The position numbers and the translations under genes were made by a program. A stretch of DNA of 64,000 bases, from contig JAAERL010001045.1 in the NCBI GenBank assembly GCA_024230435.1, forward strand, positions 62,001-126,000. The letters run 5' to 3'. The stretch's first letter is position 1, and every line of letters begins with the position of its first letter. Below, one piece after another: positions 31,341-35,090 of this stretch. The stretch comes from Desulfobacteraceae bacterium. GTDB lineage: Bacteria > Desulfobacterota > Desulfobacteria > Desulfobacterales > Desulfosarcinaceae. The notes beneath the pieces were generated by a model. It saw nothing but the letters and a program-made list of their open reading frames with translations, had not been told where the DNA came from and searched no databases.

Positions 31341-31718
31341 CTAAGGGGTGCGCTGATCCGTAATCTGAGCAATACGATCAATCCCTTCCTTGACAATTTT
31401 GTGCTCTTTCGGACTGTTAGCCATGGACTTGGCATGCTCGAGATTTTTCATGCTATCTTTGATTTCTCCTTTATAAGCCAGCGCAATAGCCAATCCAACA
31501 TAGGCGGAAAGATAATTGGGGTCGAGATCCATGGCACGCCTGAATTCACGGCAGGCGTGATCAATCTTGCCGCGATCAAGCAAATTGTGTCCATTGGAAA
31601 CATGCTGTAACGGGGAATCCAGACTCTGCCGCAAGCGAACGGTATCGGGTCCGCAAGCAGTCATAATCAATAGTGTAATCAATGATAACACCACTAACTT
31701 TATTCTATACATTACCAT
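31341..31718 (-). CDS. Small TPR lipoprotein
   Basis: A 125-residue lipoprotein: hydrophobic signal with lipobox LIMTAC (Cys about residue 22), then two tetratricopeptide-like repeats (GHNLLDRGKIDHACREFRRA and AYVGLAIALAYKGEIKDSMK). TPR lipoproteins are usually scaffolds in envelope complexes; partner unknown. ATG 31712 is an equally possible start. It converges on ahcY. Confidence 0.83.
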   Translation of the reverse strand: MVMYRIKLVVLSLITLLIMTACGPDTVRLRQSLDSPLQHVSNGHNLLDRGKIDHACREFRRAMDLDPNYLSAYVGLAIALAYKGEIKDSMKNLEHAKSMANSPKEHKIVKEGIDRIAQITDQRTP

Positions 31719-32507: not shown

Positions 32508-33284
32508 ATGGAACGGGTCATTGGCTATATCGGCCGCAAAGCCATACATTCAATTAACCACATACTTGATCTTTTCGCCTTCACTTATCGGATTTTGCGT
32601 GTTGTGGTATCAAATCCTATGGGCGGCAGGGTGTTGGTCGGCAGGATTACCGTTCAACAGCTTTATTTTACTGCAGTTCAAGCATTGCCGGTCATTATAC
32701 CCATTGCTCTGCTGATTGGGACCATGGTGATCATTCAATTTGCCAGAATTTCCGGTCAGTACAACTTCGGCCGCATATCCGTTCTTCTTATTGTAAGGGA
32801 GCTTGGCCCAATTATAACCGCCTTGCTGGTGATTTTAAGAACTGCTACAGCGGTGACCATTGAAATAAGCTATATGCGTGTGCTCAATGAACTTGAGGCG
32901 CTTGAAATTGGCGGGATGGACCCTATACGCCTTGTGTGTCATCCCAGGCTGGTAGGTATCACCGCCGCGATGATCTGTCTTTTTATCGTATTTGATTTGG
33001 TCTCAATTTTAGGCGGCTACGCTATTGTCTGGTTGGCAACCTATATCCCGATGGGTAATTATTTGCATCAGATTGCAAACTCGATTACCATTTCAGATAT
33101 CTTTGTCGGTGTAATTAAAGCCATTGTTTTCGGCGTTGCTATAACGGTAACCTGTCTTTATCGCGGATTTGAATCAAAGTACCAGATGACCGAGGTCCCG
33201 GTGGCCACTTCACAATCCGCCATTGAGTGTTTTTTTTATTGTTTGGTTTTAAATGTTTTTATTTCTGTAATATTTTATCTTTAG
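32508..33284 (+). CDS. mlaE: MlaE-family ABC lipid-transport permease
   Basis: A 258-residue MlaE/YrbE permease of a phospholipid transport system between inner and outer membranes. The family segments are visible: an N-terminal amphipathic helix, TM helices near 55-80, 93-115, 150-175, 200-225 and 238-257, and the conserved coupling stretch RVLNELEALEIGGMDPIRLV. It is followed by an ABC-like gene (12 nt) and an mlaD-like gene, the expected partners, but mlaC and mlaB are not present here. Confidence 0.93.
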   Translation: MERVIGYIGRKAIHSINHILDLFAFTYRILRVVVSNPMGGRVLVGRITVQQLYFTAVQALPVIIPIALLIGTMVIIQFARISGQYNFGRISVLLIVRELGPIITALLVILRTATAVTIEISYMRVLNELEALEIGGMDPIRLVCHPRLVGITAAMICLFIVFDLVSILGGYAIVWLATYIPMGNYLHQIANSITISDIFVGVIKAIVFGVAITVTCLYRGFESKYQMTEVPVATSQSAIECFFYCLVLNVFISVIFYL

Positions 33285-33296
33285 AAGACGGATTAC

Positions 33297-33998
33297 GTGA
33301 TTTTTATCGAATTGTCAGATTATTCGCTTCCTCCCTTCGGAACCGGGGTCGGAATTAATGAATTTTATTTTAACATTAAAGATGGGGACGTTTGCGCTAT
33401 TGTGGCCGCCAATCCCGATGATGCCTGCACTTTTCTCAGGGCTTTGGCTATGCTGGTCAGCCCCATAAAAGGCAGCTACCGGTACAAGGGTGAATATCAA
33501 GATTTTAAAAATTATTCCAGATCGTTGCAAATCAAGAAAAAAATCGGATATATCGCACCAGACGCGGCCTTGATAAGCAACTTGACCATCAGGCAAAACC
33601 TACTGCTTAACCGGTTCTATCATGAAAACGATTTGCACATTCAAATTGATAAAAAAATGCGTTTTTTATGCGAAAGTTTTGATTTGTCAGACAAGTTGGA
33701 TCACCGTCCCGCCTCTTTAAATATTATGGAAATTCAGTCTGCTATTATCGTCAGGGAAATTTGTAAAGATCCTGAAGTTCTTTTACTCAACAGACCGGAA
33801 GATTTTATTGGTCACAGCAAGTTTGATTTTTTGACGGAGTCTTTTAATAGGTGGATCGGTCAAAAATTGCCAGTGGTTTTTATATCCTATGACCGGCGGT
33901 TGATCCGCAGATTCGCCAACCGCAAGATTTTGATCACTAATGGGACATTTGGCACTCTGGATATCAACCGTAATAACGGGACCAATAATGGGATATAG
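33297..33998 (+). CDS. MlaF-position ABC-fold protein with lost ATPase motifs
   Basis: A 233-residue protein in the place of the MlaF ATPase. Its framework matches an ABC domain, but the motifs are gone. Walker A is DVCAIVAANPDDACTFLRAL where GPNGAGKST is expected; the Lys is replaced. The signature region reads RPASLNIMEIQSAIIVREI instead of LSGGQ. Walker B is EVLLLNRPED instead of LLLDEPTSGLD. The H-loop is FISYDRRL, with Tyr for His. The reading frame is intact and tightly spaced, so it is a conserved gene product that probably cannot hydrolyse ATP, perhaps a structural or regulatory subunit with an ATPase supplied elsewhere. GTG start. Confidence 0.8.
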   Translation: MIFIELSDYSLPPFGTGVGINEFYFNIKDGDVCAIVAANPDDACTFLRALAMLVSPIKGSYRYKGEYQDFKNYSRSLQIKKKIGYIAPDAALISNLTIRQNLLLNRFYHENDLHIQIDKKMRFLCESFDLSDKLDHRPASLNIMEIQSAIIVREICKDPEVLLLNRPEDFIGHSKFDFLTESFNRWIGQKLPVVFISYDRRLIRRFANRKILITNGTFGTLDINRNNGTNNGI

Positions 33999-34046: not shown

Positions 34047-35090
34047 ATGGAAATGGAATTTACACGTTTAGAGAAAGTAGTCGGCACATTTATCGTCTGT
34101 GTGGTTATGCTGTCTGTGACAACACTTGTTATTATCGGCCGTGGAAAAGATTGGTTTGAGAACTATATCACTTACTATACAACGTTTAATGAGACCTATA
34201 ACATCCAGGAAAATGCAGCGGTTAAACTTTTTAAGGCCGATATCGGAAAAGTGATAAAAATTAACCTGGTTGAAAACAGGGTCCGTGTTAAATTGCTCAT
34301 CAAAGCTCAGTACGCTACCAGAATCCGGCAAAACGCCGTTGCAGTTGTGGAAAGCCCTACCTTTATCGGATCAGAATACATATCCATTATTCCAGGATCG
34401 CATAGTGAAGAAAAAATTGAGGCAGACGGCGAAATACCCTCCCGTGAAAAGCGTTCTTTCAACGATATTATGGCCGAGTTTGAAGTCGAAAAAACCGGCA
34501 AAATGGTCGTTAGAGCCATTCAGAATATTTCCGATGTAGCTGAACAGCTCAGCAACGATCAAGGACCTTTAGTAATCTCGCTGGCAAATATCAAAGAGAT
34601 CAGCACAAATATCCGGCAAATCACAGAAGACTTAAAAACCGGAAAAGGGCCTGTGGGAACCCTTCTGAAATCCGAACAGCTTTTACAGCAAATTATTTAT
34701 AATGTTGATCGAATGGGGGAAATTATACAAAATATTTACAATGCTACCTCCCAGGCTCCCGAAATTATGACTTTGGTGCAAAATAACCTGGAAAATTATA
34801 CTAAGACCGGAAATCTGGTTAGGCAAAGAGTTGATCAAACAGGGGTAATTATCTCTGATATACAAAAAGCGGCAAAGAACCTTACGGTGATTGCGGATAA
34901 CATTAAAGCAGGAAGCGGCAATATTCCCCGAATTACGACAACGTTCAGGGATGGCGTTCAGGAAATACGCGAAGGTGTAACCGAAATCAACAGAATCGTA
35001 AAGGCTCTGCAAGACAATATGTTCATCAAAAAAAAATTGAGACCCGACCCGGCGCCGGGTAATACTGATGCCGGCGCAAGATTGGAATAG
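34047..35090 (+). CDS. mlaD: MlaD-like MCE-domain lipid-binding protein
   Basis: A 347-residue protein with one N-terminal membrane helix (about 8-30), a single MCE domain (about 40-130; AAVKLFKADIGKVIKINLVE and AVAVVESPTFIGSEYISIIP) and a long helical tail (about 150-330) with repeated coiled-coil character. MlaD-type proteins form hexamers that take lipids from MlaE. The long tail suggests a tunnel-like assembly rather than a short MlaD. Third gene of the mlaE cluster. Confidence 0.9.
   Translation: MEMEFTRLEKVVGTFIVCVVMLSVTTLVIIGRGKDWFENYITYYTTFNETYNIQENAAVKLFKADIGKVIKINLVENRVRVKLLIKAQYATRIRQNAVAVVESPTFIGSEYISIIPGSHSEEKIEADGEIPSREKRSFNDIMAEFEVEKTGKMVVRAIQNISDVAEQLSNDQGPLVISLANIKEISTNIRQITEDLKTGKGPVGTLLKSEQLLQQIIYNVDRMGEIIQNIYNATSQAPEIMTLVQNNLENYTKTGNLVRQRVDQTGVIISDIQKAAKNLTVIADNIKAGSGNIPRITTTFRDGVQEIREGVTEINRIVKALQDNMFIKKKLRPDPAPGNTDAGARLE

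Follow-up and report, generated by a model that had tools for sequence, protein, structure and literature searches.

A predicted pseudo-ATPase at the MlaF position of an MlaEFD-type operon in a Desulfobacteraceae bacterium

Background

In Escherichia coli, the coupling helix between TM2 and TM3 of MlaE contacts MlaF (PMC7790496). MlaE without ATP adopts an open V facing MlaD, and the transfer of lipid from MlaD to MlaC is spontaneous, ATP hydrolysis being reported to prevent it (PMC10212509). The MlaEFD system of Veillonella, with its long MlaD, spans the envelope without MlaA or MlaC (PMC10665443), and PqiAB and LetAB function without an ATPase domain (PMC12436622). A search of the open literature, which left out most subscription papers and every bioRxiv preprint, yielded no report of an MlaF devoid of its motifs.

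The window analysed here, a stretch of 64,000 nucleotides from a Desulfobacteraceae bacterium, contains an mlaE-F-D operon whose middle gene, referred to below as pseudo-mlaF, begins 12 bp after mlaE and ends 48 bp before mlaD.

32508..33284, + strand: mlaE, the operon permease, 258 aa, no STAS domain (Pfam PF02405, 173 bits)
32874..32924, + strand: MlaE coupling-helix segment MRVLNELEALEIGGMDP, the expected NBD docking site (aligned with E. coli and canonical MlaE)
33297..33998, + strand: pseudo-mlaF, ABC NBD fold with all catalytic motifs gone (Pfam, canonical alignment, AlphaFold2, VIA)
34047..35090, + strand: mlaD, 347 aa, with a membrane anchor at the N-terminus, a single MCE domain (residues 40-117) and an extended C-terminal region (Pfam PF02470, 51 bits)

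The operon and its ATPase-like subunit

The mean column identity in the alignment of the operon MlaE is 69% over 31 sequences. Its AlphaFold2 model is helical (pLDDT 79.6), and a short helix (residues 128-134) lies at the coupling-helix segment, which is retained in the alignment with E. coli and canonical MlaE. Pfam finds the MlaE domain alone in the 258 aa, with no STAS fusion, and there is no mlaB in the operon. An mlaD orthologue is found 3' of pseudo-mlaF in nearly all loci. A small gene for a TPR lipoprotein (lipobox LIMTAC; window 31341-31718, - strand) is divergent from mlaE and adjoins the operon in most genomes of the same family; it is possible that the lipoprotein is an outer-membrane partner, or that this is synteny alone.

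The ORF of pseudo-mlaF (+ strand) has a GTG start, codes for 233 aa and has no internal stops. An initial annotation had described an intact ORF with an ABC-like framework between mlaE and mlaD, and both parts of that description hold: the frame is open between flanks that Pfam identifies as MlaE and MlaD, the Pfam ABC_tran profile scores 35.6 bits against a cut-off of 25, and AlphaFold2, run with 38 orthologues, predicts a complete NBD (pLDDT 89.9, pTM 0.86). At the level of the model, the fold is intact and confident. Foldseek and VIA-align match it to the ABC NBDs of MacB, MetN, FtsE, LolD and MlaF, with VIA Z values of 20.8-23.2 (21.1 for Pseudomonas aeruginosa MlaF, 7cha_I; 21.6 for E. 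coli MlaF, 6xgz_A). Nucleotide-bound states are frequent among the top VIA rows, which may be a habit of modelling and is not relied on here.

The positions of the motifs were assigned through alignment with 28 canonical MlaF.

33405..33431, + strand: Walker A site, AANPDDACT (A37 to T45) in place of GGSGCGKTT
33558..33560, + strand: Q-loop Gln site, Gln replaced by P88
33561..33620, + strand: post-Q-loop segment DAALISNLTIRQNLLLNRFY, the expected permease contact and the best-conserved part of the family
33717..33731, + strand: ABC signature site, LNIME (L141 to E145) in place of LSGGM
33777..33803, + strand: Walker B site, VLLLNRPED, catalytic Glu replaced by Arg
33888..33890, + strand: H-loop His site, His replaced by Y198

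In this alignment the Walker A Lys corresponds to A43, and the LDEP of Walker B to L164-N-R-P167, with N165 for the Asp and R166 for the catalytic Glu; the D-loop Asp is likewise gone. The old P-loop passes directly into a helix (residues 40-50) in the model. The losses listed by the initial annotation (AANPDDACT, NRPED, no LSGG, Tyr in the H-loop) are thus confirmed against the canonical proteins. On the evidence of its sequence, and with no biochemical data, pseudo-MlaF is catalytically dead, though automated annotation will label such proteins ABC ATPases.

Conservation and selection

Fifty aligned orthologues were compared, column by column, with 28 canonical MlaF drawn from the same set of genomes. 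None of the 50 orthologues has the Walker A Lys, which all 28 canonical proteins possess, and the same is true of the catalytic Glu, which is replaced by Arg in 30 orthologues and Gln in 10. The Q-loop Gln is kept in 4/50 and the H-loop His in 6/50 (28/28 for both in canonical MlaF); a few members retain a stray Asp, Gln or His. With the Walker A Lys and the catalytic Glu absent from every aligned orthologue, the motif loss is far beyond chance.

A new consensus has taken the place of the old one, namely Asp (45/50) followed by Ala (38/50) in the former P-loop, and R-P-E at Walker B. The motif columns are the most conserved in canonical MlaF (entropy 0-0.24 bits), but are at background in pseudo-MlaF (1.9-3.1 bits). 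The 20 columns after the Q-loop, in contrast, have a mean entropy of 1.07 bits, versus 1.94 for the rest of pseudo-MlaF. Loss of the motifs together with a kept post-Q region and a retained MlaE coupling helix is the pattern expected of a binding rather than a catalytic subunit, the contact with MlaE being inferred.

The pseudo-mlaF genes are under purifying selection (dN/dS near 0.2-0.3). Ten disjoint orthologue pairs had a usable dS, and their median dN/dS (NG86) is 0.23, compared with 0.16 for canonical MlaF pairs. No relative of the window gene is near enough for an unsaturated estimate, and the values come from its orthologues. In the same pairs ω ranges over 0.06-0.28 for MlaE and 0.08-0.45 for MlaD; it is lower for MlaE than for pseudo-MlaF in all pairs, and lower for MlaD in all computable pairs but one.

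Distribution and phylogeny

Strong orthologues with loci (E 1e-36 or better) occur in 29 of 60 related genomes, the window's own excluded, and sit between mlaE and mlaD in every locus where the contig extends far enough. A survey of the order, restricted to genomes at least 90% complete, found pseudo-mlaF in 71/241 genomes and 42/110 genera. Most of the genomes compared are metagenome assemblies. A search of a wider contig collection with the single protein gave no matches, whereas a search with an 11-row alignment did. The carriers named there include, among others, Desulfosarcina widdelii, Desulfatitalea, Candidatus Desulfaltia, Eth-SRB1/2 and Syntrophaceae, and neither a Walker A motif (GxxxxGK[ST]) nor an LSGG-type signature was found in these loci (L074-L112). 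The carriers place the host within Desulfobacterales or near that order. More all-dead genes are found in Ignavibacteriales, Aminicenantes, Myxococcota and Halobacteriovorax.

The MlaE trees place the E-F-D systems apart from canonical MlaE, and the window's group, in which every MlaF is dead, forms a starred clade with support of 99/93 in one tree and 99/97 in the other. The MlaE tree calls for about four switches between kept and lost motifs. At least two of them are required by its starred branches; the higher figure leans on rows with long branches (L145, L067) and on others recovered by searches biased toward the window family. In the F-protein tree canonical MlaF, including that of E. 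coli, is a single clade (100/97) with the window gene outside it, but the deep joins are poorly resolved and the deep placement of the window gene is uncertain. Because the F-protein trees have long branches, the conclusions about loss rest on the MlaE trees.

Relatives with graded loss elsewhere in the phylum were found by a search based on MlaE, which does not favour dead motors. For example, the proteins of L222-L229 keep Walker A, the Q-loop and the Walker B Asp, have LSxG or ISxG as signature and lack the H-loop His; in those of L231 and L238-L241 nothing survives beyond the P-loop GK and some fragments; in L236 and L237 all motifs are gone. The MlaF of Spirochaetes and of Pseudoalteromonas phenolica are also intermediate. 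The order of loss suggested by these sequences is H-loop and signature first and Walker A (the P-loop) last, although this is an inference from living species and does not amount to a reconstruction of their past. Comparative records of how a motor becomes a structural part are rare, and this graded series offers one.

Several single loci may be described in addition. In P. phenolica, L131 and L140 each have an mlaE-mlaF pair; an mlaD-like gene is next in L140, and none was detected after the pair in L131. In the MlaF of this cultured organism Walker A is kept, whereas Walker B reads WDSP and the H-loop His is missing; normal ATP hydrolysis by this protein is unlikely. In a 'Deltaproteobacteria' MAG (L119, 4189-4896, + strand), MlaE apparently lacks about 38 residues including the coupling helix, which could be real or an assembly artefact; the MlaF beside it keeps GAGKS and has lost the signature and H-loop. 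Still more degenerate MlaF-like proteins are encoded in Halobacteriovorax and a 'Deltaproteobacteria' MAG (L148, 4881-5585; L150, 4941-5633). That of L148 is beyond Pfam recognition, and the MlaE profile found no match in the flanks of either. A second, separate lineage of operons with mlaE, dead mlaF and mlaD, from the same taxonomic order as the window (L066, 5113-7791; L067, 5306-7949), has W-I-N after the Q-loop where others have I-S-N.

Canonical Mla genes in the same genomes

The window's genome has three MlaE and four MCE proteins, and mlaC and mlaA are adjacent on another of its contigs. In the two other MlaE the N-terminal part is longer (STAS-like by sequence only), and intact MlaF adjoin them; canonical mlaD, too, is present outside the window operon. 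The check for an intact mlaF elsewhere, which the initial annotation had proposed, therefore has a positive outcome. The fourth MCE-domain gene (G000:C265:34646-34834, L247) is on a contig without an MlaE match. Canonical MlaF genes are common in the genomes with the dead gene, and at least one further MlaE is present in every such genome of the relatives set; the dead system is therefore an addition and not a replacement.

Proposed mechanism

The operon may be regarded as a minimal MlaEFD-type MCE lipid transporter whose ATPase subunit would have turned into a dedicated pseudo-ATPase. Two copies of pseudo-MlaF most likely dock on both coupling helices of an MlaE dimer, and would hold MlaE fixed in a state like the nucleotide-free one. 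Lipids could then move passively, down their gradient, between the inner membrane and a hexamer of the long MlaD, without ATP hydrolysis. A passive conduit is inferred because lipid transfer in the E. coli system is spontaneous, the Veillonella system bridges the envelope, and PqiAB and LetAB are free of ATPase. By analogy with E. coli Mla, the flow would likely be outward (anterograde), alongside a canonical Mla that the same cell drives with ATP.

Taken as a whole, an MlaEFD complex in which a pseudo-ATPase clamps MlaE, leaving an ATP-independent and possibly outward lipid conduit, is the explanation that we favour with moderate confidence; its function, dimer architecture and direction are all inferred, whereas the motif loss, the modelled fold, the conservation, the selection, the clade, the operon context and the presence of canonical Mla in the same genome were observed directly in the data. 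That the transporter moves lipids without ATP is probable, again by inference and with no biochemical data. Substrate and direction rest on analogy only, and since the net physiological role argued for the E. coli and Veillonella systems is retrograde, outward transport would mean that the function has changed. The extension to a widespread and repeatedly evolved class of pseudo-ATPase MlaEFD systems, acting as passive inter-membrane conduits and possibly as the anterograde complement of retrograde Mla, is tentative, and we would place it a little short of an even chance.

An ABC-type transporter whose only motor subunit is dead, and which is nevertheless conserved over the order and outside it, calls into question whether permeases of the MlaE type need ATP. 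Such a transporter would also provide a natural test of phospholipid delivery to the outer membrane and of the direction of MCE transport, which is debated.

Alternative explanations

Transport might still be driven by ATP if an intact MlaF encoded elsewhere joins pseudo-MlaF or takes its place, a sharing of the kind seen in mycobacteria, where one ATPase serves several Mce systems. The further MlaE in every genome with the dead gene, the frequency of canonical MlaF there and the intact coupling helix of MlaE are all compatible with this. In a mixed dimer, however, the intact Walker A/B would be opposite the lost signature, and the intact signature opposite the lost Walker A; as pseudo-MlaF lacks all of these, such a dimer has no complete ATP site. 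Moreover, the dead gene is retained in the operon under purifying selection instead of being deleted, and canonical MlaE is a separate clade, most of whose members have the longer, STAS-like N-terminal part. The logic of composite sites argues against a borrowed motor, without experimental proof, but leaves room for a dimer of intact MlaF to take the place of pseudo-MlaF, and we consider a shared ATPase unlikely though worth retaining. Between the two options left by the initial annotation, another ATPase or a structural role, it is the structural role that is favoured, while a borrowed ATPase remains possible.

It is also conceivable, but a good deal less than likely, that there is no net transport, the complex being regulatory or locked, with pseudo-MlaF keeping MlaE and MlaD closed or tethering other proteins as an envelope spacer or lipid store. 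An NBD without activity might serve as a brake just as it might serve as a clamp, there are no data on transport, and the Arg that replaces the catalytic Glu in most members, together with the conserved degenerate P-loop (DDA), suggests a new selected surface. The strong conservation of MlaE and MlaD, on the other hand, is that expected of a lipid path in use.

A sensor of nucleotide or another ligand, bound non-canonically, would agree with the intact fold and with the conserved Asp, Ala and Arg in the old site, but is very improbable for a protein without the phosphate-binding Lys, the Mg-binding Ser/Thr, the Q-loop, the signature and the H-loop, and with acidic residues at the would-be phosphate positions.

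Finally, a decaying mlaF remnant retained by chance, for which the only argument is an ω that somewhat exceeds that of MlaE and, in most of the same pairs, that of MlaD, is scarcely credible and was rejected on orthologues, dN/dS and trees alike, given the open frame at this place in the operon in members of the order and outside it, an ω near 0.23, the new conserved residues where the motifs were and the monophyly of the dead clade. The initial annotation was right that this is no recent pseudogene, as the order-wide orthologues in the same slot and their dN/dS indicate, and the observation that would have refuted it, intact orthologues with relaxed selection on this copy, was not met: relatives with more intact motifs lie only outside the window's all-dead clade, and selection is purifying.

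Comparison with known systems

The pseudo-ATPase clamp that we favour may be set beside several known arrangements. Heterodimeric ABC transporters with one degenerate site, e.g. TAP and CFTR, likewise retain a degenerate NBD as a structural partner. They keep one complete catalytic site, however, whereas the only NBD of the window operon has none.

E. coli MlaFEDB (PMC7790496) resembles the window in having an MlaE with a coupling helix, an MCE-domain MlaD and an NBD-fold subunit at the MlaF position. The window differs in lacking the Walker A/B, Q, signature and H residues as well as MlaB, and in the lengths of its NBD subunit (233 aa vs 269 in E. coli) and MlaD (347 aa vs 183). Mpc of Brucella abortus shares the combination of MlaE/F with a long MCE protein, but its ATPase MpcF is reported to be well conserved as an ABC protein, and a STAS domain is present in MpcE (PMC12436622).

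The minimal MlaEFD of Veillonella parvula has the same mlaE-mlaF-mlaD operon, a long MlaD and no mlaA, mlaB or mlaC in the operon; its mlaF, however, is reported to be close to that of model diderms (PMC10665443), while the ATPase of the window is dead to judge by its residues. The closest functional precedent is PqiAB/LetAB (PMC12436622), in which an MCE tunnel is likewise combined with a membrane part without an ATPase domain. PqiA and LetA, however, are membrane proteins other than MlaE and have no NBD-like subunit, whereas the permease of the window is an MlaE.
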